From contig JAQIBN010000085.1 in NCBI GenBank assembly GCA_027859095.1, positions 1 through 56,128 of the forward strand: DNA of 56,128 bases, in the 5' to 3' direction. Below are positions 14,755 to 31,058 of the stretch, piece by piece. Each line of letters opens with the position of its first letter. Positions within the stretch are counted from its first letter, which is position 1. The notes beneath the pieces were generated by a model that had not been told where the DNA came from, ran no database searches, and saw only the letters and a program-made list of their open reading frames with translations. Position numbers and translations under genes: made by a program. The stretch is from Spirochaetia bacterium. GTDB lineage: Bacteria > Spirochaetota > Spirochaetia > B11-G9.

Positions 14755-15663
14755 TTGATTGATCTATCTTTACTAAATGAAACAACTGAAATTCTCGCAA
14801 ACAACTTTACACCAGGAGAGATAGAAAGCCTTGGCAAGATTATTTATTCCAAATATGACGGACATAAAGCTGCAGGAGTAAAAAATCACATTACAATGTC
14901 TCCACGAAAATGTGCCAATGCCCTGGTTCAGTTTCTTAACGAAAGTAAAAAAACTTTCCAGCTAATTAAACTGATTATTGAAATGGATGACAGTGCATTA
15001 AATGGAAAAGCAAAAAATATTGAAGGCCTGGAAGCTTATTTAAATAAGCTGGTTAAAAGTGATATTTACTACGACTTTAAAAAACGTAAATTACATCATT
15101 CTAAAAAAGATGCTCATAAAATGATAAACTGGGGCATTTTAAATGATGGGAAAACTTACAGTATAACTGTTATGAGCCTGGATATAGTTGGAAACTCTAT
15201 GCTTGTTAAAAAACACGGTACAAAAACTATGGAAAAAGTATATTTTCGTCTTCGAAATTTTATTGAAAAGAAAGTTCTGGATTACGATGGGCGGATTTGG
15301 AATTTTGCAGGGGATGGAGGTCTTATTGCATTTACTTTGAAAGAGCACCCTACCAGAGCAGCACTCTGTGCACTGGATATAAGAGCTGCCCTTGCTGTAT
15401 TTAATATACGTCCTGATCTTCCTATAAAGGAACACATATCCCTGCGACTTGCTCTGGATACAGGAAAAATAAAATTTTCCTCCAACACAGGCCACATTGT
15501 TTCAGATATTATAAACTATGCAGCACATCTCGAAAAAGCAGGAACTCTTCCAGGAGAAATCTCTATCTCGGAAAATGTAAAAAAAGATCTGGCCATAAAA
15601 GTTGCCAAAGTTTTCAGTGATAAAAATGTATTTGAGAATATGAATTGTTACAGTACTGTTTAA
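14755..15663 (+). CDS. Class III adenylate/guanylate cyclase with N-terminal helical domain
   Basis: VMSLDIVGNSMLVKKHG, WNFAGDGGLIAF, DIINYAAHLEKAG; strong SD TAAGGAGGG upstream of TTG 14755. Confidence 0.8.
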   Translation: MIDLSLLNETTEILANNFTPGEIESLGKIIYSKYDGHKAAGVKNHITMSPRKCANALVQFLNESKKTFQLIKLIIEMDDSALNGKAKNIEGLEAYLNKLVKSDIYYDFKKRKLHHSKKDAHKMINWGILNDGKTYSITVMSLDIVGNSMLVKKHGTKTMEKVYFRLRNFIEKKVLDYDGRIWNFAGDGGLIAFTLKEHPTRAALCALDIRAALAVFNIRPDLPIKEHISLRLALDTGKIKFSSNTGHIVSDIINYAAHLEKAGTLPGEISISENVKKDLAIKVAKVFSDKNVFENMNCYSTV

Positions 15664-18600
15664 AATATACCAATTCTTGTTCCTATACTGTAAGTTGGAA
15701 CTACGCCAGCCTGAATATCTGAAGAGATAAACCACAGAGCAGCTTCTGCATATAATGAATAGGTATTGAGCATTTTTAAATCCTTAAGTTCAAATTTTGC
15801 AAACTCAAACTGTGTTAATACTGATCCTAAAACAACACCCTTATCAGTAAATGAAATACGGTCTTCGGACATTGTAAAATAATTAAAATTTGCACCTACT
15901 GCAACTGACATTGAAAAGAAATCCCAATCATAACCAAAAAAATAACTAAATGGCAGATCTATAATACTTGCCAGTAACTTTCCACCTACAACCAGTCCAT
16001 TAAAACGGCCTGGAGGCGCCATCCCAATTTGTGCCTGAATCTTAACTACATCATCAAAGAAACTAAGACCAACTCCAAGCTCTCCATATGTAGCACCAAG
16101 AGCATGCATATCAATATACAATCCCTGAACAAAGGAAGGCACCTGGTATTTTTCTTTTCTTCCTTCCCTTATAAGAACTTCCACACTTTCAAGTCCATTT
16201 GAATCTCCAGCAGTTCCAACAAGTGTCACTGATCCATTAAATTTTTTATTTTCTTCTGGAATAAAAAGGCTAATCCCAGGTGATGTTTCATCTACATTAA
16301 CAAATATTTTGATAATATTCGATTGACCATCTTCAAGAAAGGATCGAATTATTAATTGATTTTCACCTTCATTCAGATCATATGTCTCAAGCCGGAATTC
16401 CCAGCTTTCCCGGCCCTTTGCATCTACAAAACTTCTTCCATTATCAAGACTGACTTCAACCTTTTTAACTCTTTTAGTTTTATCATCCTGTTCCGGACCA
16501 TCATATCCGGCTGTTCCTGTTATCAATGGACGGTCGGATACAAATTGTCCACTAATTATATTTTCAACTTTTAACCATGGTCCATCTGAAATAAATGATA
16601 TATTTCTTAGTTCAGATGTAATACTATTTTCAGCATCAGCACTTTCAACAGACAAAGTATGTAATCCATCAATTAATTCTTCTTTACCTAATGAAAAACT
16701 GAATAATCCATTAGTTTTAATATCTGTCGTTTGAATTATATTACCATCAATTTTAAGTACAGCTTTTTTTACATCTTCAAGATGATTCATACGACCTTCA
16801 ACTACGAAATTTCCAACAACATCTTTGCCTTCTTCAGGAAAAAATAAATCTATAGATTTTTGTTCTTCTAAAGGCATTATTAGTAAATTCCGGGTTTCAC
16901 TTATACTGTTAGCTGCATGATCAGTAACTGTTATAGTAAGATTATACCAGCCTGGATTGTATTCCTTTATATCAATAATATCCCTAAAAACGTCCTCAGT
17001 TATTATTTCCCTAATTACAGGTTCACCTTCACCATCCAGATATTTTAATTCTGTAATTACAGATTTTATCTTTGTACTGTCATAAACTTTACCATCAACT
17101 ACAAGAGTACCTGCTACAGAATCACTTTCACCAGGATAATCAAGTTTAATCTCCGGAGATGTATTATCAATATTTAAAATAGTTGAAGCTATACCAACTG
17201 TTCCAGCATTATCAACAGCTTTAATTAATATTGAATGCGTACCATCTCCAGAAAGTCGGGTATTAAAATTATAAGTCCATGTAAATGTTGTAGATTCTTC
17301 ATTACTTTCTTCAATAAAAACTTCTTTTTCTAAAATAGCTTTATTAAATGTCACTCCATTATCATATGAAATAAATACAGAATCTACGCCATTCTCATCA
17401 TAGGTTTGACCTTTCAGGGTAATATTATTTTTAGCATAAAATTCAATAACAGGAGAAAGCAATAAACTAACAGGTTCAGCTTTTGATACAATAAAATTTA
17501 CAGTTACATCTTCACTCATAAACCCACCTGAGTCAGATGCTCTTACAGTTACAGTATGCTCGCCATCAATTAAATTATCTAAAGAATAGGGGATATTAAA
17601 GTATTTATCTCCCAGAAGTTCTGTAAATTCTTCAGTATCCATTGAATAATAAATAGAGCCAACTTCATCATCATCAAAAACCAATCCCGTTATTTCAAAG
17701 TCATCACGAATAGTAGCATTACTTGCGGGTATTTCTATGGAAACAGTAGGTCTGTCTGATTCACGATCAACTATAAATTGAGGTTTTAATTCAGTAATAT
17801 TCCCAGCTCTGTCACTAAGCTTCAATATAAAATCTTCTGATATTACTTCTTCTCTGGATAAATCAATGTTAAGAAAAAAACCATTATCCTCTGCAATAGG
17901 GATTTCGATAAAATCCACACCATTTTCGGAAAAAAACAGTAGACCACCATCAGTAAAATCTTTGATTTCACCAACTACTGTTATAATTCCCTCAACAGAA
18001 ACATCAGGCTCAGGGATAATTACAGCAAGAACTGCAGATGTTCTATCAATAACAAATGGAATAGTCTCTGAATAAATATTGCCAAAAATATCTGTAATAA
18101 TTACTGTATAAAAATGATTACCTTCCTCCAGGCTTAACAGATCAATTTCCATATCAAATACTTCAGAATTATCATCTTTTCCATTTGTCAATTCACGACT
18201 GGAACCATAACTGACAGCAGATCCTGAAAACTCAATATTTGTTTTTTCGATACCAGTTCCATCTGAGTATGTTCCCGATAGAAGCAGCTTATCTGTTAAA
18301 ACAGAATTATTGGTATTACTAATATTTAAAACAGGTATAGTATTATCACTTCCAACCTTTATATCTTCACTTGTATATTCTTTTCCCTGGGATGTTTCTA
18401 TTTTTACGGTAAAAGAAACAGGTATAGATTCAGATACAGGTACAATTGAAAAACGACTGCCCTCATATTCAATTTTAAAGCTTTCCTGTTCTGGAACTAA
18501 AACAGCAGATTTAATTGTATCTTCTGTTACAAAAATGTCCATTACGGCTTCTTTGGAATTTTTTGGATTATCTGAATCCACAACTGCAGGACTTATCATT

Positions 18601-20477
18601 TTTTCTGTAACCTTATGCCCTGTTATATATCCTGTCAGGGGTTTCTTTTTTGAGATATTAGCAGTCTGTCCCCTGCTTAAACGAGAATCTTCAATAAATA
18701 TACTGTCATTTTTTTCAGCTTGAAAAGGTTTATATTCTTTATCTTTTTCAGGCTGAGGTGAAATATAAATACGGGTACTGAAATTATCAGATCTTTCTAA
18801 CCCGTCAGTAACTGTCAGGGTTAGATTGTACCCACCTTCTTCAAAATCTTTTGGAAGCAGGATTGAAAACTTTCCATTCGATACTTTTACAATCTCTTCT
18901 GACCGACTGCCAATAGTATATACAGCAGATAGAGAACCCTCTCCACCTGAAACCAATCCCTCAATTTTAGATGTCTTTCCCTGCATAAGAACTGCTCCAT
19001 CATAAAAGGGTTCAAGAACTAGTTTATCTGAATTATAAGTATCTACTGATAATTCAGGAACAACATTTATAATATTAAATGAATACTTAATACTTTTACC
19101 TTTTAAACCAAACATATCCACAGCATACAAATCTACTGTATGTTTACCTGGCTCCAGATCTTTTACTGGAATTAAAAAAGGACCATTTGAATCAATAGAT
19201 TTAAATTCTGTTTTATCAATAGAGAATTCTATAGACTTTACACCATCATCATCATTTGCCAGACCCTTTAAATAACCAGTAAACGGATCAATATTTTCAA
19301 TAACATTTTTTTCACTGGAATTAATTAATTTTAACAATGGAAGATCAGCTTCATTATCCATCTTTAAATCCAGTTTATAATTTCGTGTATTTCCAGATAG
19401 ATCGACTGCAATAAATGTTATAGATGCAGATTTTCTTCCACTTACATCAAAGGTATGGCTCCAATAAGGGTTACCAGTAATTAGGGGAATAGAAACTTCT
19501 TCCTTGTCATAAACAAATGAGAATCCTGCAAGACCAACTTCATCATGAACGGTTCCGGAAACTGTAACAAATCCATTTAATATTTTATCCTCAGTGGGTG
19601 ACTTTATTACAATTTCCGGCTTTTTATTATCTGAATAATAAACAAATACAGTACTGCTTTCAGATCCAGTTCCATCGCTGGTTCTTAACCAGATATAATC
19701 AGTACCACCTTCGCTGTCTCTTGTATCAATTTTTAAGGAAAATTCACGTTCAATATGTTTAGGTTTTCCCGAAAGCTTTAAAGTTAAATAATTTTCACCA
19801 TCTAAACTATACTCAAGATTTTCTACTCCATTAGCATCAAATACAGTACCCGTAATAGTTATTTTTCCGGATAATATTTCTCCGTTACTATGAGAATCTA
19901 TTTTAATTTCCGGTTTTGTTTTATCAATATTAAATGATACTAAAACCTCATTTCCTTTAAGTCCGTTTATATCAGTAACTCTGGAAGAAATTGTATGTAC
20001 TCCGTCGGAAAAAGTTTTAACACTAAAAAAGGAGGACCAGAACTCTTTACCTTCTGCGCGAACAAAGGGTTCCTCATCAAGACGAACTTCAACAAAATCA
20101 ATTCCGTCGTCGTCTGTTGCAGTACCTATAACTGTAAAGTCACCTCCAACTCTCATATTTTCTGTAGGGCTGGATATTGAGGCTACAGGAAGATCAGATT
20201 CAGAATCAATAAATATATTTATGGGATCTGCTATAGAAATATTACCGGCTTTATCGGTACTTCTAATTATAAGGTTATATTCACCATCCGGGTAGTCGGA
20301 GATATCGTAGTTGTATGTCCAGTTTTCCAGGCCGTCTACCGTTTTGTATTCAGTACTTATTGTCTCTTTTTCAATTGCTGCTGGAAGGGGTGTTGCCTCC
20401 TGGGATGAAAGCGCTGTTGAGATCGTGAAAAAAATGATTACCAGTAATAAATTTTTATTAATTATTCTCCTTTTCAT
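15660..20477 (-). CDS. Giant Ig-like repeat surface protein with predicted C-terminal outer-membrane beta-barrel-like region
   Basis: About 1605 aa from ATG 20477 with signal peptide MKRRIINKNLLLVIIFFTISTALSSQ; many repeats of the G-x-V-x-D-xx-G-(V/L)-xx-(V/I) Ig type; aromatic-rich alternating C-terminus ending TRIGIF. Confidence 0.8.
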   Translation of the reverse strand: MKRRIINKNLLLVIIFFTISTALSSQEATPLPAAIEKETISTEYKTVDGLENWTYNYDISDYPDGEYNLIIRSTDKAGNISIADPINIFIDSESDLPVASISSPTENMRVGGDFTVIGTATDDDGIDFVEVRLDEEPFVRAEGKEFWSSFFSVKTFSDGVHTISSRVTDINGLKGNEVLVSFNIDKTKPEIKIDSHSNGEILSGKITITGTVFDANGVENLEYSLDGENYLTLKLSGKPKHIEREFSLKIDTRDSEGGTDYIWLRTSDGTGSESSTVFVYYSDNKKPEIVIKSPTEDKILNGFVTVSGTVHDEVGLAGFSFVYDKEEVSIPLITGNPYWSHTFDVSGRKSASITFIAVDLSGNTRNYKLDLKMDNEADLPLLKLINSSEKNVIENIDPFTGYLKGLANDDDGVKSIEFSIDKTEFKSIDSNGPFLIPVKDLEPGKHTVDLYAVDMFGLKGKSIKYSFNIINVVPELSVDTYNSDKLVLEPFYDGAVLMQGKTSKIEGLVSGGEGSLSAVYTIGSRSEEIVKVSNGKFSILLPKDFEEGGYNLTLTVTDGLERSDNFSTRIYISPQPEKDKEYKPFQAEKNDSIFIEDSRLSRGQTANISKKKPLTGYITGHKVTEKMISPAVVDSDNPKNSKEAVMDIFVTEDTIKSAVLVPEQESFKIEYEGSRFSIVPVSESIPVSFTVKIETSQGKEYTSEDIKVGSDNTIPVLNISNTNNSVLTDKLLLSGTYSDGTGIEKTNIEFSGSAVSYGSSRELTNGKDDNSEVFDMEIDLLSLEEGNHFYTVIITDIFGNIYSETIPFVIDRTSAVLAVIIPEPDVSVEGIITVVGEIKDFTDGGLLFFSENGVDFIEIPIAEDNGFFLNIDLSREEVISEDFILKLSDRAGNITELKPQFIVDRESDRPTVSIEIPASNATIRDDFEITGLVFDDDEVGSIYYSMDTEEFTELLGDKYFNIPYSLDNLIDGEHTVTVRASDSGGFMSEDVTVNFIVSKAEPVSLLLSPVIEFYAKNNITLKGQTYDENGVDSVFISYDNGVTFNKAILEKEVFIEESNEESTTFTWTYNFNTRLSGDGTHSILIKAVDNAGTVGIASTILNIDNTSPEIKLDYPGESDSVAGTLVVDGKVYDSTKIKSVITELKYLDGEGEPVIREIITEDVFRDIIDIKEYNPGWYNLTITVTDHAANSISETRNLLIMPLEEQKSIDLFFPEEGKDVVGNFVVEGRMNHLEDVKKAVLKIDGNIIQTTDIKTNGLFSFSLGKEELIDGLHTLSVESADAENSITSELRNISFISDGPWLKVENIISGQFVSDRPLITGTAGYDGPEQDDKTKRVKKVEVSLDNGRSFVDAKGRESWEFRLETYDLNEGENQLIIRSFLEDGQSNIIKIFVNVDETSPGISLFIPEENKKFNGSVTLVGTAGDSNGLESVEVLIREGRKEKYQVPSFVQGLYIDMHALGATYGELGVGLSFFDDVVKIQAQIGMAPPGRFNGLVVGGKLLASIIDLPFSYFFGYDWDFFSMSVAVGANFNYFTMSEDRISFTDKGVVLGSVLTQFEFAKFELKDLKMLNTYSLYAEAALWFISSDIQAGVVPTYSIGTRIGIF

Positions 20478-20520
20478 ATTCCACTTACCCCGTATTAAAT
20501 AATTATAGTTTTTATAAATT

Positions 20521-23500
20521 TTATTCTTCAAGGAGCGTAGCCTCCTCTAGAAATGATCCATTGTATCCAATTACAAGAGGTCCTTCGGTTCTTCGATCTA
20601 TTATATCAAGAGGATCTGATGTATCCCGTGTACTGTTAATTCCAATGTAAGCATTGCTTTCGGAAGGAGCTGTAGAAGCAGATACAGAGGTTACCTCCCA
20701 GGCTCCAGTGTACTGCCCGGTTACATAACTGGCTCCATTAGCAAAGTTAACATCGCCAAGTGGATATACAGGCCATGCTGCTCGCAGTGCATATTTTGTT
20801 CCACTGAATGAGAGGGAATAGTTAGAAATTACTGGACGGTAATCTGCACCCACAGTTTCATCAAAATCTTTTATTGCTATAGAGTTATACATGCCATTTG
20901 TAAATAGCGCATCTATAGTGTAAGTCTCAATTTCAGAATCAAGGCAGTCGAAGGAAGGCAGGTATGTATATTTCAAATTACTGTTGGATCCATCATAATA
21001 TGATAAATGAACACCATGATCAGGATCTACAATCATATCAACATAGAGCCCAGCACCAGTATCAAGTGGAGTTGCTCTAGAAAGCCATGCTGAAGGATTA
21101 TTTACAGGGTCAGAATTATACATAAATTTTAGCTCAGACGCAGATCCATCATAGTAGGCCATATAAATATTTGATCCAACGCCATTTTCATCCCAGGCAA
21201 TATCAAAGTGTTCTGAATCTGCTCCACCGGAAGTTAGCTCTATCCTAGTTGGTAAGCCTGTTCCTGTATAACCAACACCGTCATTATAAGGAGTTATCAA
21301 TCCAACATTATAACTGGTACCTGGATAATTTGTATCTGCAGATGGTGTATATTTACTTAAATTTGTTGTCCAGCCTCCTGCCATATTAGTTATCTGATCC
21401 CCTGCACTCAGAGCCGATCCAGTTTTAAAAGCAAAGAAAACAATGCTCTGCGATTCACCGGCCACATCATAATACGCGATATAGTTATCTGTATTTGTAT
21501 CCCCACCATCTGTTATTATTTGCAGGTTGTGGTTACGATTCATAACAACAGAGTTATATGCATAATTTGCGTCACCATTAAATGATAGGTTACCTATACC
21601 TAGTCGATTCTGATTTAGTCGATGCCAATTGAAAGCTTCTGACTCATAGGTTTCATCTTTACCCCATTGCACTGAGCCATAATATGCATAATTTGTTTGC
21701 CCACTATTCCAGTTCATATTGTGCAAATATATATAAATCGGAGTTCCATCTTCATTGATATAAAAATCTCCACCCATAGTACTCCATGAATTTGCTAATT
21801 GCGTTGAATTCAGGTTTACACTTTGTCCATTTTCAACATAATACCAATTCATATCTGTCGATTCTGTATTAGCTACCTCAGAAAAAACCGGTCTCATAAC
21901 AGCTTCTGTTTTACCAGCAATAGCTGTTTTCGAATCAAGCTGCCAAAAATACATATATCTATCGTCAGTCATTCCAGGTTTGTACGCAGAAGCTTCACTG
22001 TTGTAATCTTTACTATTGTCATTAATATTGTTTATAGAACTTATTCCATGGGTGATAACAGTAAGTTCTCCAGATTTTGTGGAATCCTTGATTACATCAA
22101 CATAAGAATAATTTACAGCATCTCTTGCTGTAATAGCTACTGAGTTTGAGCCAATTGTTACCAAATCAGATGGATATGCTACTGTATCAGGGTCAGGATA
22201 AAGGTTGTAACCTGAAATACGTATTGTATTTGAAGCACTGTAACTGACTGGGTATCGCCCCAAAGCACTCCTCTTAATAAAAGAAAGAGTTCCATTCTCC
22301 ATGCCTGTAGTAATATCAGTTATATACGGAACAACATCCACAGTCATAGAATCTGAGGCAGTATTTGGAGTCAAGGCATAATCTTCAATAGAAAAAGTTA
22401 TGGGAACATTGTTTTGAGCTACACCTGCAACAGTTGCAGAATTCCAGGCATATGTCCATGTAATCAGAAGACCTGTATATTCCGAGAAATTATATGTATC
22501 GATTACAAAATTACCATCCTGGGAAACTAATGCGTTACCAACCCAGGAAGCAAGAATATGATCAGTTCCAACACCATCAAGTGTTAATTTAATATTTTTA
22601 ATTCTCTGGTTATCCCATGCATTTCCTGTTATTGTCATTTGACCACTTACATCGGGATCAGTTCCATTGTGCAGACTGCTTCCTGATTCCTCAAGATGCC
22701 CTGCTATTACATTCCCCTGTGTCAGCGCATCAATGCTGATTGTGGGATAGATATCATCAGTATTATCAATAATTACGTTTATTAGCTGAGATGTAGTTAT
22801 CCCATCTGAATCTGTAACTTCATAATAAAAGGATTCCGAACCGTCAACATATGGGGGTACAGATATATCAATTGTTGATGAAGGATTTGTAGATAATAAT
22901 GTACCAGTGTTATTAATCCCCTGAAAAAGTTTATAGCTCAGACCAGGTATATAATTATCATTTACTGTTATTGAAAGGTAGAGTCTATTCTGAGCATTAA
23001 AACTTGCTGTATATCCAAACTGTTCTCCAGCTTCAACAATGCCGCTCCAATCAAGGTCAGTTCCTACTGTTGTTGCAGTAATTACAGGTTTATGATTCTT
23101 GATAAAACCACTTGCCAGGTAGTGATGGGCATTCCCGGCCTTATCCCACACCACATAATGAAGATCAATAGTACCATCGGGTATATTTTCCGAATTAAGT
23201 TCTGCCCACCATGAATAGGTCGAGCCGGACAATGTCAATGACTCATTATATCCATCAAGGTCTCCGTTAACACCTGAATCATTTCCCAGTTCATCAGGAT
23301 CATTAATTATTATCTTATAACTGTCAGAGGAGGGATAAGGAACAGATCCGTTTCCATCTCCAAAGTTATTTGCGCCCACTGCTACAGATATATCTGCTAA
23401 TGCAGAATTATACACATTTCCAGCTCTAACAAAATAGACCTCTATCTTATCTATACCACTGACTGTGCCCGAATCTATGGCCTGACCCTGAACATTAAAA

Positions 23501-26019
23501 GTTGTTCCATTTATATCTTCCAAAACACCTGTCCAGGTTCCAGTCGGAAGAATATTATCCACATTAAGATTGATAGAAGTATCTGTAGAGTTACTGGCAT
23601 TATCTACAACCTTCAGTTTTATAGGCAGAACACCACTCATAGGAATATAACTTGTTGTATTGATACTTTGTGAAATACTATAGTCTTTACCGTCCATGGC
23701 TCCAATAAGGGTACTTGAACCTGTAATATCAGTATAACTGGTACCTCCGTTGTAACTTATAAGTATTTGATTTACCAGCTGGGGGTCATGAGCCTGACCT
23801 GTCAAAGTAAAAGTACCTTTTGCATAATCAAATGAACTGTGTGAGAAATTATCAAAATAGGGATAAGAATTGTCAAATTCAACATCAATAGATACATCGT
23901 CCCCAATTACTCCAGGATTGGCACCATCTTTTGTATCGACAGCCCGCACCTGAATAGTAACTGTCCCTGTTCCTCCGGTAGTTGCCGCAAAGAGTTCACC
24001 ATTTGTATTCAGTTCCTGCTGCCAGTTCAATGTTCCACTTACAGTATTCCATAATGACTCATCCTCAAAAGGATCTGAAGTATTACCATCTCCATCTAGG
24101 ATAATTTGATCAAGAAAATCATGATCTCCATTAAGATCCAATCGCATTTCTACTCTTAGAACCTGTTGTTCGTCATAGGATGTACCACGAATAGTAACTG
24201 GTCCCCCAGTCTTAAACCCATCCTCTGGATATGTAAATGAAACTTCAGGTTTATCAAGGGCTGAATTGATTAAAAAGTAATAATAGGATTCAGTTGTTTC
24301 ATAAGTGTTACCAGCAATATCTGTAACTTTAAATGTAATTGGCAGCTGCCATACTCCACCTCCAAGATCATCTGCTGAACCAATATTTGTGTAAGTACCT
24401 TCCACATCTGTTAGTGCCTTTGACCAATGGCTAAGATCAAATAACTCTTCCCAGGCTCCATCTTTACCTATTTTTATAAACCCTTCCAGGAAGGCATTAG
24501 AATTATCTTCACATATCCCCTGTACAGTAACGTCACCGTACACCTCGGAACTTTTCACTGGGTAATTAAAGGTGACAGATGGATTTGTAATATCAACATA
24601 AAAAGAAATATTATAAGATGATATTTTTCCTGTTCCATCTTCAGCATAAACCTTTACACTATGCATTCCTTCTGATAAAGCAGGACTTGTATACGTCCAA
24701 TCTGCAAAACCATTAGCAGTTGATGCATCCCTCCAGTCTACTTCAGCCTCTCCATCCAGTTGAACCTTTACAGAAAGAACGGATTGATCATCATATGCAG
24801 TTCCGACTAATCCTGCTGTAGAAGAATTGAGATAATCACCTTGTGCGGGGTTGGTAATAGCAATCTGTGGTGCTCCAAGATCAATTGTAAAAGAAACTAC
24901 ATCAGATACTTTCTGAGTACCATGATCATCTTCAGCACGTATTTGAATAGTATGAGTACCATTCCCCAAAGACGAAATATCGTATTTAAAATTGACTGCT
25001 TGTCCGGAACCAGTAATTTCAGTTCCAGGGAGTGCTGAGTTCCATTCCCAGACAGTATCATTTATATTTATTTCAATAGTTGATGTATCTACTGCATCAT
25101 CATCCTCAACACGGCCAATGACTATTGCATTACCTCCAAGCTGAGCTCCAACCTCAGGATTACTAATAGTTATTACAGGAACATCATCATTCATATCAAC
25201 ATTAAGAGGCAGCTCAGTTATTTCTATTCCTTCCAGAGATAATTCTGTAATAACAGCTCCTGGAACAGATTCACCATTCTCAATTTTATAAAGATTTTCT
25301 ATGGTTAAGTAAGTTCCACCATTAAGACTGTTTACATCATTATAATGAAAAAAATGTGTATTTTGATTTCCGGCAAAATCTTCTGCAGTGATCTCCAGTG
25401 AGTACGAGCCGGTTACTGCGTTTGATAAAACACAACTCCATGAATTAGTTCCCTCAACAGTACTCAGAGTACCGGAACCTGAGACTAAGGCAACAGATAC
25501 CTGTCGTATTCTAAAAGGGTCTGTTGCTTCCCCTTTTATTGAAAACTGGGAGTCCGATGCGGCAGAAGCAAATCCGGGAGAAACCGTTACCATAACTATA
25601 GGTGCTGTATTATCAAAATATAACAAAAGTCTTTCTTCACTTGTTTTTGGAGTTGAGGAAGTATCACTGACAAGAACTACAATATCCTTTTCACCATCTT
25701 CAACAGTTGCAGTATCAATAGTATAGAACCAGGATAGCTGATCGGTTGCTACAGTTGCATCTAAAAAGGTAAGACCTCCATCAAAGGATAACTTCACAGA
25801 TTTTATTCCAATATCATCACTGGTAGTACCAGTAAGAGTAATTTCACCTTTAACATAGTCTCCATTAACTATAACAGTACCATCACCATAGCTTCCAATA
25901 GAAAGTTCAGGAGCTTCTATATCAACCTTATCACCAAGACCAATCATGGTATTGGGACAACCTGCTATAACTACTATCGATAGTATAAATAAATATTTCA
26001 AAATTTTATTAACTGTCAT
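20521..26019 (-). CDS. Giant Ig-like repeat lipoprotein with C-terminal IPT/TIG and propeller-like region
   Basis: Lipobox MTVNKILKYLFILSIVVIAGC from ATG 26019 with SD AAGGAG; tandem Ig-like repeats; YDGSASELKFMYN / YDGSNSNLKYTYL repeats. Confidence 0.8.
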   Translation of the reverse strand: MTVNKILKYLFILSIVVIAGCPNTMIGLGDKVDIEAPELSIGSYGDGTVIVNGDYVKGEITLTGTTSDDIGIKSVKLSFDGGLTFLDATVATDQLSWFYTIDTATVEDGEKDIVVLVSDTSSTPKTSEERLLLYFDNTAPIVMVTVSPGFASAASDSQFSIKGEATDPFRIRQVSVALVSGSGTLSTVEGTNSWSCVLSNAVTGSYSLEITAEDFAGNQNTHFFHYNDVNSLNGGTYLTIENLYKIENGESVPGAVITELSLEGIEITELPLNVDMNDDVPVITISNPEVGAQLGGNAIVIGRVEDDDAVDTSTIEININDTVWEWNSALPGTEITGSGQAVNFKYDISSLGNGTHTIQIRAEDDHGTQKVSDVVSFTIDLGAPQIAITNPAQGDYLNSSTAGLVGTAYDDQSVLSVKVQLDGEAEVDWRDASTANGFADWTYTSPALSEGMHSVKVYAEDGTGKISSYNISFYVDITNPSVTFNYPVKSSEVYGDVTVQGICEDNSNAFLEGFIKIGKDGAWEELFDLSHWSKALTDVEGTYTNIGSADDLGGGVWQLPITFKVTDIAGNTYETTESYYYFLINSALDKPEVSFTYPEDGFKTGGPVTIRGTSYDEQQVLRVEMRLDLNGDHDFLDQIILDGDGNTSDPFEDESLWNTVSGTLNWQQELNTNGELFAATTGGTGTVTIQVRAVDTKDGANPGVIGDDVSIDVEFDNSYPYFDNFSHSSFDYAKGTFTLTGQAHDPQLVNQILISYNGGTSYTDITGSSTLIGAMDGKDYSISQSINTTSYIPMSGVLPIKLKVVDNASNSTDTSINLNVDNILPTGTWTGVLEDINGTTFNVQGQAIDSGTVSGIDKIEVYFVRAGNVYNSALADISVAVGANNFGDGNGSVPYPSSDSYKIIINDPDELGNDSGVNGDLDGYNESLTLSGSTYSWWAELNSENIPDGTIDLHYVVWDKAGNAHHYLASGFIKNHKPVITATTVGTDLDWSGIVEAGEQFGYTASFNAQNRLYLSITVNDNYIPGLSYKLFQGINNTGTLLSTNPSSTIDISVPPYVDGSESFYYEVTDSDGITTSQLINVIIDNTDDIYPTISIDALTQGNVIAGHLEESGSSLHNGTDPDVSGQMTITGNAWDNQRIKNIKLTLDGVGTDHILASWVGNALVSQDGNFVIDTYNFSEYTGLLITWTYAWNSATVAGVAQNNVPITFSIEDYALTPNTASDSMTVDVVPYITDITTGMENGTLSFIKRSALGRYPVSYSASNTIRISGYNLYPDPDTVAYPSDLVTIGSNSVAITARDAVNYSYVDVIKDSTKSGELTVITHGISSINNINDNSKDYNSEASAYKPGMTDDRYMYFWQLDSKTAIAGKTEAVMRPVFSEVANTESTDMNWYYVENGQSVNLNSTQLANSWSTMGGDFYINEDGTPIYIYLHNMNWNSGQTNYAYYGSVQWGKDETYESEAFNWHRLNQNRLGIGNLSFNGDANYAYNSVVMNRNHNLQIITDGGDTNTDNYIAYYDVAGESQSIVFFAFKTGSALSAGDQITNMAGGWTTNLSKYTPSADTNYPGTSYNVGLITPYNDGVGYTGTGLPTRIELTSGGADSEHFDIAWDENGVGSNIYMAYYDGSASELKFMYNSDPVNNPSAWLSRATPLDTGAGLYVDMIVDPDHGVHLSYYDGSNSNLKYTYLPSFDCLDSEIETYTIDALFTNGMYNSIAIKDFDETVGADYRPVISNYSLSFSGTKYALRAAWPVYPLGDVNFANGASYVTGQYTGAWEVTSVSASTAPSESNAYIGINSTRDTSDPLDIIDRRTEGPLVIGYNGSFLEEATLLEE

Positions 26020-26126
26020 TGTTAACTCCTTCATAAACAAGATCGTATTACCATTTCCAAAAAAAAAAATACCACCCCACCTATTTATCGGCAAATTTAG
26101 TACTTTCATTTAAAATCCGGTAATTC

Positions 26127-26510
26127 CTAACCCAGAAAAACCTCTTCATCGTCACAAACAATATCAGCAGAACCAATATCTAAATTTATTTTAAAAACTC
26201 CAGAAAACCCTGGTAATTGAAATACTTCCAGAACATGGGGCTGTAACCTATCCAAAACAATACTACCGTCACTTTCTTTAACCCTATTCAATAAATTAAT
26301 TAAAGAACCTATTCCCATTGCTGAGATATATTTGATATTACTCATATCAAATACTAATTGGGTATATCCCTGGTCAATAAGTAAATTTATTCTTTCCTCA
26401 AAGTAGATAGAATTGTAGCTGTTAATGGATCCAATGGGCTCAATTATGATTGTACCCACAGATTCCTTTACAGTCTGAAAAGAAAACTCAAGATCTTTAT
26501 ATACATCCAT
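26127..26510 (-). CDS. STAS-domain protein (anti-sigma factor antagonist-like)
   Basis: 127 aa; FDMSNIKYISAMGIGSLINLLNRVKESDGSIVL. Confidence 0.88.
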   Translation of the reverse strand: MDVYKDLEFSFQTVKESVGTIIIEPIGSINSYNSIYFEERINLLIDQGYTQLVFDMSNIKYISAMGIGSLINLLNRVKESDGSIVLDRLQPHVLEVFQLPGFSGVFKINLDIGSADIVCDDEEVFLG

Positions 26511-26552
26511 ATCAACCCCCTATATAAATAAATTTACTTCTACAGCCATTAA

Positions 26553-26568
26553 AGCAATAACTATGCCA
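26553..26568 (-). promoter_or_regulatory. Sigma-54 promoter upstream of the STAS gene
   Basis: Minus strand TGGCATAGTTATTGCT matches TGGCAYR-N4-TTGCW exactly; 43 nt upstream of the STAS start codon. Confidence 0.75.
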
Positions 26569-26629
26569 ACTTCAAATCAGAGCTACTTTATATAAAATCT
26601 TATAGATAGAACATAAAACCATTATTTAA

Positions 26630-26667
26630 TCGACCTCAAGGTCGAGCTATATCGACTAAAAGGACGA
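26630..26667. promoter_or_regulatory. Two tandem enhancer-like (UAS) sites
   Basis: TCGACCTCAAGGTCGA (26630-26645, palindrome) and TCGACTAAAAGGACGA (26652-26667, 12/16 identical), centres 22 bp apart. Confidence 0.6.
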
Positions 26668-26674
26668 ATAAATA

Positions 26675-26703
26675 TTGTATAAGCGCAGTTTAACTGGTAC
26701 AAT
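26675..26703 (+). promoter_or_regulatory. Sigma-70-like promoter for the response regulator gene
   Basis: TTGTAT-17 nt-TACAAT, 40 nt upstream of ATG 26744. Confidence 0.5.
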
Positions 26704-26743
26704 GAAGGGAATAAATAAAAATTGTGTTATGAAGAAGGGCTAA

Positions 26744-28135
26744 ATGAAAATATTAAACATTCTTATACTTGATGATGATCCTACTCAACTGGAACTATTA
26801 AAGTTAATGTTTGAAAAAATAGAATATCCTCCATGTAATCCTGTTTTTACATCAAATGAAAAAGATTTTTTCTCAGAACTCTCCCAGGCTCCATATGATC
26901 TGGTTATTAGTGATTATTTTATGCCTGATATAACAGGAAGAGAAGTATTAGATAAGGTGAAAATTGAGAAACCCTGTTGCGAAGTAATAATACTAACTTC
27001 AGGAACTACTACCAAAGAAGCAATTGAGCTGATGAAGATGGGTGCCTACGATTTCTTACTTAAACCAATTAGTTTTGAAATTCTAAAGAATCGTTTGAAT
27101 AAAATATTTGAACTCAAAAATCTTATTCAGGAAAATGGAAGCCTTCTAGAACAGGTTAAGATTAAAGATGTAAGTTTTTCAAGTGATATTATTTTCAAAA
27201 GCCATAAAATGGAGGAAGTAATAAACATTGCAGCCCGGTCTGCCGGTACTGATTCAAATGTTCTTATAAGAGGTGAGAGCGGTACAGGGAAGGAACTTGT
27301 TGCCAGAGCCATACATTTCTCAAGTCCAAGAAAAGACAAACCTTTTATAACTATTAATATAGCTACTTTACCGGAAACACTTGTTGAAAGCGAATTGTTC
27401 GGCCATATTAAAGGATCATATACCGGAGCAGAATCCGAACGTATCGGACGATTTGAAGAAGCAAAAGATGGAACAATTTTTATAGATGAAGCCGGAGATA
27501 TTCCCCTTACAATTCAAATAAAGTTATTACGCTTAATTCAATTTGGAGAATTTCAAAAAGTAGGCTCCAATATTACTAATAAAGTAAGTGTCCGCATTAT
27601 TGCGGCTACAAGTAGAAATCTCGAAGAAATGATACAAACTGGAAGTTTCAGAGAAGATCTTTTTTACAGACTAAACGTAATTCCTATTAATATCCCACCA
27701 CTCAGAAAAAGAAAAGAGGATATTTCTCTGCTTATTAATTATTTTCTAAAAATAAAAAGTGAAAAACAAAACAAAGAAACTGCGCTTTTAACTGATGAAA
27801 CTAATGACCTTTTAATGAACTACTCATATCCTGGAAATATTAGGGAACTGGAAAATATTATTGAATATTCAATAGCAATTGCGAGGGGCAAGTATATTAC
27901 AAGTAAAGAACTACCTGCAATTTTACAAAGTGAAAAAAAATTCCAGGAAGATACTCTACAAATTAAAACTACTGATTATACTGCAAATATGGCTCTATTC
28001 GAAACAAACCTGGTGAATGAAGCCTTAAATACTGCAGAAGGAAATCAGAGTGCTGCAGCAAGATCTCTGGGCATTTCTGAGAGAAAGCTTCGATCACGAA
28101 TGGAAATTTTGGAGATTCAAAATACATTTCGCTAA
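26744..28135 (+). CDS. Sigma-54-dependent response regulator (NtrC/AtoC family)
   Basis: Receiver (LDDDPTQ, DLVISDYFMP), AAA+ (GESGTGKELVARAIH, ELFGHIKGSYTGAE), Fis-type HTH (NQSAAARSLGISERKLRSRM). Confidence 0.94.
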   Translation: MKILNILILDDDPTQLELLKLMFEKIEYPPCNPVFTSNEKDFFSELSQAPYDLVISDYFMPDITGREVLDKVKIEKPCCEVIILTSGTTTKEAIELMKMGAYDFLLKPISFEILKNRLNKIFELKNLIQENGSLLEQVKIKDVSFSSDIIFKSHKMEEVINIAARSAGTDSNVLIRGESGTGKELVARAIHFSSPRKDKPFITINIATLPETLVESELFGHIKGSYTGAESERIGRFEEAKDGTIFIDEAGDIPLTIQIKLLRLIQFGEFQKVGSNITNKVSVRIIAATSRNLEEMIQTGSFREDLFYRLNVIPINIPPLRKRKEDISLLINYFLKIKSEKQNKETALLTDETNDLLMNYSYPGNIRELENIIEYSIAIARGKYITSKELPAILQSEKKFQEDTLQIKTTDYTANMALFETNLVNEALNTAEGNQSAAARSLGISERKLRSRMEILEIQNTFR

Positions 28136-28186: not shown

Positions 28187-28330
28187 TTCAAAGTAAAGAC
28201 TGCACAAGATGTTCTCCTGTACTCCACAGAACTATTAGAGTAATTGCGGCTCTCCTTGCTTCCAGAGCAAAAGCAAGACCAGCCATTCCAAGAAGGGAAA
28301 TAAAGAATGCTATTTCAGCCAAAGCATACC
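28187..28330 (-). other. Short unlisted reading frame, hydrophobic peptide overlapping the GH13 3' end
   Basis: Frame-shifted reading LAEIAFFISLLGMAGLAFALEARRAAITLIVLWSTGEHLVQSLL*; no clear SD. Confidence 0.35.
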
Positions 28331-30946
28331 ATAAGGAGGCAGCTCCAAATCTATAGAACCCTGATCATTAATCAGAATTTTTGCTCCTGTAAATCCATTC
28401 ACAAAATGGGTATCCTTTTTTGAATTCAGCCAATTATTATCTGCTCCCTGTAAAGTTGAAAGATCAAGATTAAAAGTAACTGCTTTTTCAGAAATATTTC
28501 CAAGGATCAAAGAATGATCTCTTTTATGAAACGGATGATTTAGAAAAAGTGTATCTGTAAGAGCAATAAACTCAAAGTCTTCACTCCCCGGATAGAATGC
28601 ATTATCAGTACACCGAAGTTCAGTTATTTTATTGATCAATGGGAAAAATGCTTTTTGAAAAGGATCAACAGGATCTGATAATTTCATATTTGGTAAATAA
28701 TTTTTATGTCTGTTAAGATCCCGGGGTTTACCGGATATTTCAAATCCATGCTGATCATTCTTTATTCCCAATAAATCATTAAAATAAATTGCAGGAACAG
28801 ATTGCCCAATGGTCAGGACAAAGGCCTGAGCCAGTGCCAAACGTGAAGCTTCTAAAGAAGGATCAATTACTAATCCGGAGATATCATTTGACGTTAATGA
28901 ACTTCTGGTTGTTGCACAAAGCTCATATATAGTTTTACCGTCAATTATCCAATTCAGGAAATAATCAATTGAAGGATCAGCGATTAGAATTTTATAATTA
29001 AGACCGGATATCTCTGCTATTTTTTTCAAAAGATTATCCCTGTTCAACATATCTTTTTTCAGAATAAAAATATTATCGGTAGTCACTGAATCAGCTGTAA
29101 AGAGACCAAGCAATTCATCTTTATAATTAACAAGCCCTGATTCAATAATTATTTTATTAAATGTGTCTGCCGGAATTTCTCCAATTGGAACTGAACGAAA
29201 CTTTGCTCTACCTCCCTGTTTTTCAATTCTATTCTTTAGATTATAAAACTGCCCAATACTCACATGACCATCTGTTCTATGGACACCAAGGCCCTGAACA
29301 GATCGCCCATCATGAGTGGACAGCATCACAAAGGGAACAAAATTATCCGGAACTTTCTTTTTAAATAGTTCATAGTAATTTATTAAGGGCTGCAGTGTGC
29401 ACTCATTAAAGGCAGTAACTGTTGAATTGACAGGACCGAATACATAGGCAAATACTCCCCCTTTACTCATTTCATAAACTATCGCGTCTGGTGAGTTGAT
29501 CTCATCCAGAGGGAGAACTCCCGGGGAAGTTAAAGCCATAAGTTTTCTCATAAAATCTATAAACTTATTTCCTTCTTCCATATCAAAATTTTTCTTGCCC
29601 TTCTCCTTCCATAGATATTTTATAGCATCCATTCTCATCATTGATAATTTACCACTGGAAAGGAGATGGTAAAGGTCATCAATTATCATCTTAAAACCAT
29701 CTCTGGTCATGGGATTTATATCTGCCTGGGATTCACTGAAAGTTGTGTAAACAAAAAATTTCTCTCCAAAAACAGCATCATCATTCCTGTTAAATATTTC
29801 CATGTATTCAGAATTAATTCCTATAGCCTTAAGGAATTCACCCATAGATCCAATTTCATCGACCCATATAATTTTTTGATTTGCCTGAAGTTGTGAATCA
29901 TTGAATAGTAATTTATCATCTATTTTATTATCCCTGAGCCATTGCTGGAAAGCAGCAAAAGTTCTTTTATCCTCTGCTGTAAGCCCCTGGTCATTTTCCA
30001 CCTTAAAATATATAGATAGAAATCTGACAACCCGGTCGTCCAGAGCTTTTAATCCCTTATCTAAAAATAGGTTATTCATTTCAATTTCTTGTTTTGTATA
30101 TTTGCGCATTCCAGTATACAAAGGAAAAGGTCTTGGTCTAAAAGTTTTATAAAGAGAACCATCACTTTTCATAGCCACATATTCTTCTGGAGTTATAATT
30201 ATAAAAGCATCACCTGAGTTTTTACCCTCTTTATATGATTCAAGAATATCGCTATCTATATCTACATGATTAACTACATAATCAAGCATTACTGAATAGT
30301 TTTTTGTTAAATTCCTTATATCTTCCACAGTTCCAAAACGAGGATCGACCTTTGCCCGTGTGGCCTGGGAGAACCCCCCATCGTTGAAGTGAGAATTAAA
30401 TGCTTTATCCAGAACTTCCACTACTTCTTCCGGAAGGTTAGTTTTAAAACTTTCAGCATTATCCTGATATATTGAAGTAATATAACGATCTTTATCTAAT
30501 ACTTCTGATTTCTGCAAATTATGTACAAGTTCCAAAGCATTTTCCTTTGGCATAAAAGAGAAAAAATCCTGGGGCCAGACATCACCATGACTCATTATTC
30601 GCTCAGGTAATATGTGGATTCCATTTATATAAGGAAAATACTCTGAAAGTATAGTACCCAGGGTTTGAAGAGTTGGTGATTTATCATCATAAATATTATC
30701 AGGATAGGATATGGCAAAAATTTTCCCTTTCAGGTGTTCATATGGCTTAGATGAATTAAACGAGGCGTAATTAGAAATTTCATTTTTACTTAGTGATTCA
30801 AGGAAGCTACCAGCAGCTGTAATCAGGTAATTATAATTACCAAGTCCCTGCTCTCTTCCATAAAGATTAAGAAGTATATCCTTTATTTCATCCAGGGTTT
30901 TATCAATATACTCAGTAGTGTGAAATTTATTCAGAACCTCTTTCAT
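28310..30946 (-). CDS. GH13 family enzyme, sucrose-phosphorylase-like, unusually long
   Basis: FNDGGFSQ, MLDYVVNHVD, TFSESQADIN, MMRMDAIKYLWKEKG, FVMLSTHDG; start ATG 30946 with SD GGAGGG. Confidence 0.8.
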   Translation of the reverse strand: MKEVLNKFHTTEYIDKTLDEIKDILLNLYGREQGLGNYNYLITAAGSFLESLSKNEISNYASFNSSKPYEHLKGKIFAISYPDNIYDDKSPTLQTLGTILSEYFPYINGIHILPERIMSHGDVWPQDFFSFMPKENALELVHNLQKSEVLDKDRYITSIYQDNAESFKTNLPEEVVEVLDKAFNSHFNDGGFSQATRAKVDPRFGTVEDIRNLTKNYSVMLDYVVNHVDIDSDILESYKEGKNSGDAFIIITPEEYVAMKSDGSLYKTFRPRPFPLYTGMRKYTKQEIEMNNLFLDKGLKALDDRVVRFLSIYFKVENDQGLTAEDKRTFAAFQQWLRDNKIDDKLLFNDSQLQANQKIIWVDEIGSMGEFLKAIGINSEYMEIFNRNDDAVFGEKFFVYTTFSESQADINPMTRDGFKMIIDDLYHLLSSGKLSMMRMDAIKYLWKEKGKKNFDMEEGNKFIDFMRKLMALTSPGVLPLDEINSPDAIVYEMSKGGVFAYVFGPVNSTVTAFNECTLQPLINYYELFKKKVPDNFVPFVMLSTHDGRSVQGLGVHRTDGHVSIGQFYNLKNRIEKQGGRAKFRSVPIGEIPADTFNKIIIESGLVNYKDELLGLFTADSVTTDNIFILKKDMLNRDNLLKKIAEISGLNYKILIADPSIDYFLNWIIDGKTIYELCATTRSSLTSNDISGLVIDPSLEASRLALAQAFVLTIGQSVPAIYFNDLLGIKNDQHGFEISGKPRDLNRHKNYLPNMKLSDPVDPFQKAFFPLINKITELRCTDNAFYPGSEDFEFIALTDTLFLNHPFHKRDHSLILGNISEKAVTFNLDLSTLQGADNNWLNSKKDTHFVNGFTGAKILINDQGSIDLELPPYGMLWLK

Positions 30947-31058
30947 TTCTCCCTCCAAAATATCGACATAAGCTATATGATCTAATTTAATAATTAATTA
31001 CAGATAGCTTTTCTTATTCTAATAGCATTAATAAATAATTACCAATATAATAATCATT

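Follow-up and report, generated by a model that had tools for sequence, protein, structure and literature searches.

A predicted dedicated sigma-54 switch upstream of a STAS and giant Ig-like protein operon, and its regulator clade in Spirochaetia

In the genome of an uncultured member of the Spirochaetia (G000; 4.2 Mb, 314 contigs) a response regulator gene lies divergent from a STAS gene that heads an operon with two genes for giant Ig-like proteins. This arrangement raises the question of how the giants are controlled, and whether that control belongs to these genes in particular. The window analysed here is a 56,128-nucleotide stretch of this genome. A preliminary description had proposed a complete sigma-54 unit for the locus, and all of its coordinates were correct on re-check. 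Judged from the sequence, it is very probable that the locus forms a complete, dedicated sigma-54 switch made up of the divergent regulator, two palindromes and an RpoN promoter of the STAS-giants operon. The features concerned are:

15660-20531, minus strand: giant 2, with a signal peptide, Ig-like repeats and a C-terminal predicted 8-stranded OmpA-like outer-membrane barrel (Pfam, orthologues, AlphaFold2, Foldseek)
20521-26109, minus strand: giant 1, an Ig-like repeat lipoprotein (Pfam Big_7/Big_13, translation, orthologues)
26127-26510, minus strand: STAS (SpoIIAA-like) protein, first gene of the operon (PF01740, 8.5e-17), with Ala in place of the phosphoacceptor Ser
26553-26568, minus strand: predicted sigma-54 (-24/-12) promoter of the STAS-giant operon, TGGCATAGTTATTGCT, an exact consensus match conserved in 5 orthologous loci
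26630-26645, no strand assigned: putative promoter-proximal upstream activating palindrome, TCGACCTCAAGGTCGA, conserved in relatives
26652-26667, no strand assigned: putative second upstream activating palindrome, TCGACTAAAAGGACGA, 22 bp from the first
26675-26703, plus strand: weak sigma-70-like promoter of the regulator gene, TTGTAT-N17-TACAAT
26744-28135, plus strand: orphan NtrC-type response regulator (receiver, AAA+ with a GSYTGA loop, Fis-type HTH), divergent from the operon

An 882-aa protein (28310-30958) with weak similarity to alpha-amylase/sucrose phosphorylase, well under the NCBIfam family cut-offs, is also encoded in the window, and proteins of similar length were found near the regulator in relatives.

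The window contains a single exact match to the sigma-54 consensus (TGGCAYR-N4-TTGCW), which was confirmed at this position with a gap of 42 nt to the STAS start codon (ATG at 26510). A genome-wide scan of G000 returned 20 exact matches compared to 0 for the reversed pattern, and each of the other 19 lies upstream of an open reading frame with none inside one, indicating that the consensus is a real signal in the host organism. The genome also encodes rpoN. In the predicted regulon of these 20 sites, Pfam identified a type III glutamine synthetase; small heat-shock proteins, two sigma-70-type factors, transporter binding proteins and receiver-domain regulators were assigned from inspection of the sequences alone. 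Another exact sigma-54 promoter (L215:346-2743) precedes proteins of 170-260 aa without a Pfam match, the first of which starts with a signal-peptide-like sequence; a divergent gene next to them encodes a receiver-domain regulator and has a sigma-54 site of its own. This is possibly a second sigma-54 surface locus in the genome.

Upstream of the promoter, the two 16-mers described previously as sharing 12 of 16 bases at a distance of 22 bp were both present and both fit the pattern TCGNC-N6-GNCGA; their centres precede the predicted start site by ~96 and ~118 bp. This pattern occurs twice in the window, compared to an average of 0.07 in shuffled windows, which never contained two. It was found at 10 places across the 4.2 Mb of G000, and the window holds the only pair in the genome. 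The count was below that of the reversed control (62 per strand), so the palindrome shows no general enrichment. With a single paired operator in G000, the genome-wide scan for it revealed no further targets of the regulator.

Conservation of the 16-mers in relatives had been set beforehand as a check capable of refuting the proposal; the tandem sites and the -24/-12 element were retained in five orthologous loci from three genera. The order regulator, STAS, giant 1 recurs in G002, G004 and G005 (the window's genus; the G005 contig stops after STAS) and in G006 and G007 (two other genera of the window's family, f1). Four of these five loci have an exact promoter, and that of G004 carries one mismatch. 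Spacing of the site pair is 22 bp in the window, G002, G005 and G006, 33 bp in G007, and 21 bp, with weaker sites, in G004. A search for the pair pattern across the genomes of seven relatives gave three matches, all at the orthologous locus, and when the three closest intergenic regions were aligned, identity peaked at the two palindromes and the -24/-12 element. In G006, added sequence including an inverted repeat separates the sites from the promoter and places them at about -236 and -258; action at such a distance is normal for enhancer-type activation. In G004 (L041:3727-5065) the gene for a 425-aa lipoprotein has been inserted between regulator and STAS, and the weakened pair and the promoter remained with STAS despite the insertion. 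An additional palindrome (TCGACAATATTGTCGA) lies upstream of both the inserted gene and the regulator in this genome, as if the inserted gene had been given a site too.

The divergent gene was confirmed as a sigma-54-type response regulator, with receiver, Sigma54_activat (AAA+) and HTH_8 (Fis-type HTH) domains by Pfam. The usual acidic, Asp, Thr/Ser and Lys residues of a receiver are present by eye. The activator loop reads GSYTGA in the window, a departure from GAFTGA that speaks against the switch, and GAYTGA or GAFTGA in orthologues; we counted it as a GAFTGA loop, and Ser and Tyr at those positions each occur singly in validated activators (PMC3162934). The regulator resembles NtrC/AtoC-type proteins in its three domains and in its best NCBIfam scores, which were to AtoC and NtrC. 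It differs from them in being an orphan with its own operator and in falling under the equivalog cut-offs of the named members among the matches listed (ntrC, 374 of 558.6 bits; AtoC, 378 of 714). The sigma-70-like promoter ascribed to it is weak in the window and was unreported by a promoter scanner, whereas better versions stand in orthologues (TTGGCA-N16-TATAAT and TTGAAA-N16-TATAAT). As had been noted, no histidine kinase is nearby: a pattern search detected none in the window and no cognate kinase near the regulator within f1, and none stands beside nearly all relatives. One relative outside this family (G111, f23; L269:7179-7347) carries small unrelated genes behind its tandem sites and exact sigma-54 promoter; a HisKA_2 kinase 2.3 kb from its regulator is a lead for the missing kinase.

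Among 395 Spirochaetia genomes searched across the class, 36, representing 21 genera, encode the regulator at E <= 1e-103. We compared 38 collected regulator loci with control regulators (49 for sites, 77 for cargo and 16 in the tree). With the exception of L298, all collected regulators formed one clade apart from the 16 controls (support 100/99). Strict tandem palindromes were found at 19 of the 38 family regulator genes compared to none of the 49 controls, and at 23 compared to one when one flanking base was relaxed. At four f26 loci one site alone stands ahead of an obvious promoter, and the pair of one f43 locus is spaced at 43 bp. Palindromes were found at 29 of the 38 loci, and the other nine lack both sites and cargo. 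When all spacings from 16 to 80 bp were searched, the 24 pairs fell only at 20-22, 30-33 and 43 bp, corresponding to two, three and four helical turns, with a phase coherence at 10.5 bp of 0.88; the pairs are non-independent, and the pattern holds over 13 lineage groups. Site-bearing regulators mostly have the recognition helix ERxLRSR or ERRIRSR, and two site-less subclades have ERKMRFRM or ERRLRYRL. The f42 regulators keep an ERHLRSRL helix yet have no sites, so helix and site match imperfectly. In most relatives the regulator lies upstream of its cargo and co-directional with it, with the sites behind the regulator gene and before the sigma-54 promoter.

The proposed link between the regulator and STAS plus Ig-like giants holds in f1, but the regulator system is not specific to either, since most of its relatives sit over chaperone-usher pilus operons. 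Cargo was found beside 27 of the 29 site-bearing regulators (19 with chaperone-usher pili, eight with the Ig-giant system) compared to none of the nine site-less ones, and none of the 77 control loci had either cargo; many of the compared genomes are metagenome-assembled and some cargo is hidden by contig ends. The 19 pilus loci were assigned on a gene that resembles a pilin, chaperone or usher and matches a chaperone-usher operon; Pfam identified PapD_N, Usher and SCPU domains in these operons, and the sigma-54 promoter, where visible, is upstream of the first, pilin-like gene. These sister loci resemble archaic (Csu-type) chaperone-usher operons in their domains, and f1 differs in having STAS and Ig giants in place of the pilus cargo. 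An Ig-like giant lipoprotein is present at seven loci (five of f1 and two f36 genomes). At both f36 loci the giant stands directly behind the promoter, without STAS, and the eighth locus of the system (L039) shows STAS and then a contig end. Sites without either cargo occur at two loci (L270, where the contig ends, and L269 of G111, with other genes). In f8 (G057, G014, G039) the two giants are encoded at separated positions with neither STAS nor the regulator beside them. An exact sigma-54 promoter precedes each giant in G057 (L200:1274, L200:17143), with weaker upstream matches in G014 and G039 (L199, L244). Outside f1, a sigma-54 promoter directly before the giants was seen in f8 only and not in G041, G033, G053, G019, G030 and others. 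The f8 promoters, standing without the regulator, suggest that the giants may have been under sigma-54 control before this regulator was involved, or may be so independently of it.

Relatives of giant 1 and giant 2 were found in 22 and 24 of 59 sampled genomes, respectively. Giant 1 has a lipobox (...VVIAGC) and a likely start near 26019. The C-terminal domain of giant 2 is conserved in 17 aligned proteins and was modelled as eight antiparallel strands (AlphaFold2, pLDDT 79), with Foldseek matches to OmpA (E 3.8e-4) and OprF (7.1e-4) at TM-scores (by query) of only about 0.4. The model thus predicts an OmpA-type 8-stranded outer-membrane barrel at this end of the protein.

The STAS protein is single-domain, and in addition to its Pfam match it is just over the cut-off of TIGR00377. 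The phosphorylatable Ser of SpoIIAA/RsbV is absent: the equivalent of SpoIIAA Ser58 is Ala in all six STAS orthologues, in an alignment that used a SpoIIAA reference sequence. A class-wide 190-aa STAS family was rejected as orthologous because it is a distinct paralogue that keeps the phosphoserine, and a terminator-like match inside the STAS gene was weak and was discounted. A close parallel is the syp locus of Vibrio fischeri, in which a sigma-54 response regulator, SypG, also turns on a surface/biofilm locus with a single-domain STAS gene (sypA), whose promoter requires SypG (PMC10162802). The non-phosphorylatable SypA-S56A is active despite its inhibitor (PMC10120452), and the Ala of that active form is the residue naturally present here. 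By this analogy the STAS protein of the window may be permanently active. The syp system differs in its cargo (polysaccharide synthesis, compared to Ig giants or pili here), in its regulator site (TTCTCANNNTGMDWN, compared to TCGNC-N6-GNCGA) and in having a known partner kinase, SypE, where none was seen at the window locus.

The mechanism is most likely ordinary sigma-54 enhancer activation. The weak promoter of the regulator would keep it at a basal level, and we infer that its dimers bind both palindromes. Activation would presumably occur through phosphorylation of the receiver Asp by a kinase encoded elsewhere, after which dimers on the two sites could nucleate the AAA+ ring, and the ring would loop onto RpoN-RNA polymerase at 26553-26568 and open the promoter. 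The output of this predicted RpoN-dependent step would be an operon of STAS, a giant lipoprotein and a barrel-anchored giant. Across the clade the operator (TCGNC-N6-GNCGA, tandem, on one helical face) appears to be retained and the surface cargo to vary, with archaic chaperone-usher pili in most families and giant Ig-like proteins in f1 and some members of f36.

The palindromes could instead serve mainly the regulator's own sigma-70 promoter, through autoregulation by the regulator or by another protein, with their distance from the sigma-54 promoter being incidental. The distal palindrome does end 7 nt before the -35-like element of the regulator, and after the insertion in G004 the palindrome TCGACAATATTGTCGA is found upstream of the regulator. 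We nevertheless judge this unlikely, as the weakened pair in G004 stayed by the STAS promoter and in most relatives the sites follow the regulator gene and precede the sigma-54 promoter. It is also quite improbable that the sigma-54 promoter works under another enhancer-binding protein while the adjacent regulator acts elsewhere. Candidates exist, since G000 encodes many AAA+ regulators (tens at first look) and the f8 giants have sigma-54-like promoters without this regulator beside them, but sites, regulator clade and cargo occur together in 27 of 29 cases and the site-less subclades, some with an altered recognition helix, have no cargo. Consensus scans by themselves are weak evidence, and the matches could in principle be functionless products of chance; the genome-wide counts against the control, the shuffles, the helical spacing and above all the cross-genus conservation, which in the main refutes chance, leave this reading a negligible probability.

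Most work on sigma-54 control in spirochaetes concerns Borrelia (Rrp2-RpoN-RpoS) and Leptospira. The present regulator family, together with its operator and exchangeable surface cargo, appears undescribed in the open-access literature, in which we found no link of sigma-54 in spirochaetes to chaperone-usher systems or Ig giants. The dedicated switch proposed for the window fits the general theme of sigma-54 as a controller of the bacterial exterior (Francke et al., 2011; PMC3162934); that survey gives an average of only 1-2 activators per spirochaete genome, and a term search of its text returned no mention of fimbriae or STAS.

We lean, with some reserve, towards a broader reading in which a regulator clade found throughout the spirochaetes and so far undescribed, with every member tied to a tandem operator of its own, forms an exchangeable control cassette for surface structures. 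In this reading archaic chaperone-usher pili and giant Ig-like/OmpA-barrel proteins have replaced one another as cargo, and one family has added a locked STAS protein that cannot be phosphorylated and would act post-transcriptionally as a constitutively active helper. For a regulator clade distributed across many spirochaete families, this would provide an operator and a regulon open to testing, and it would indicate how two widespread but uncharacterised giant proteins are controlled and where they are likely to be located. A further prediction is that one switch has pili and giant Ig-like outer-membrane proteins as its alternative outputs, which suggests that they probably share a job, with surface attachment as the example we infer.
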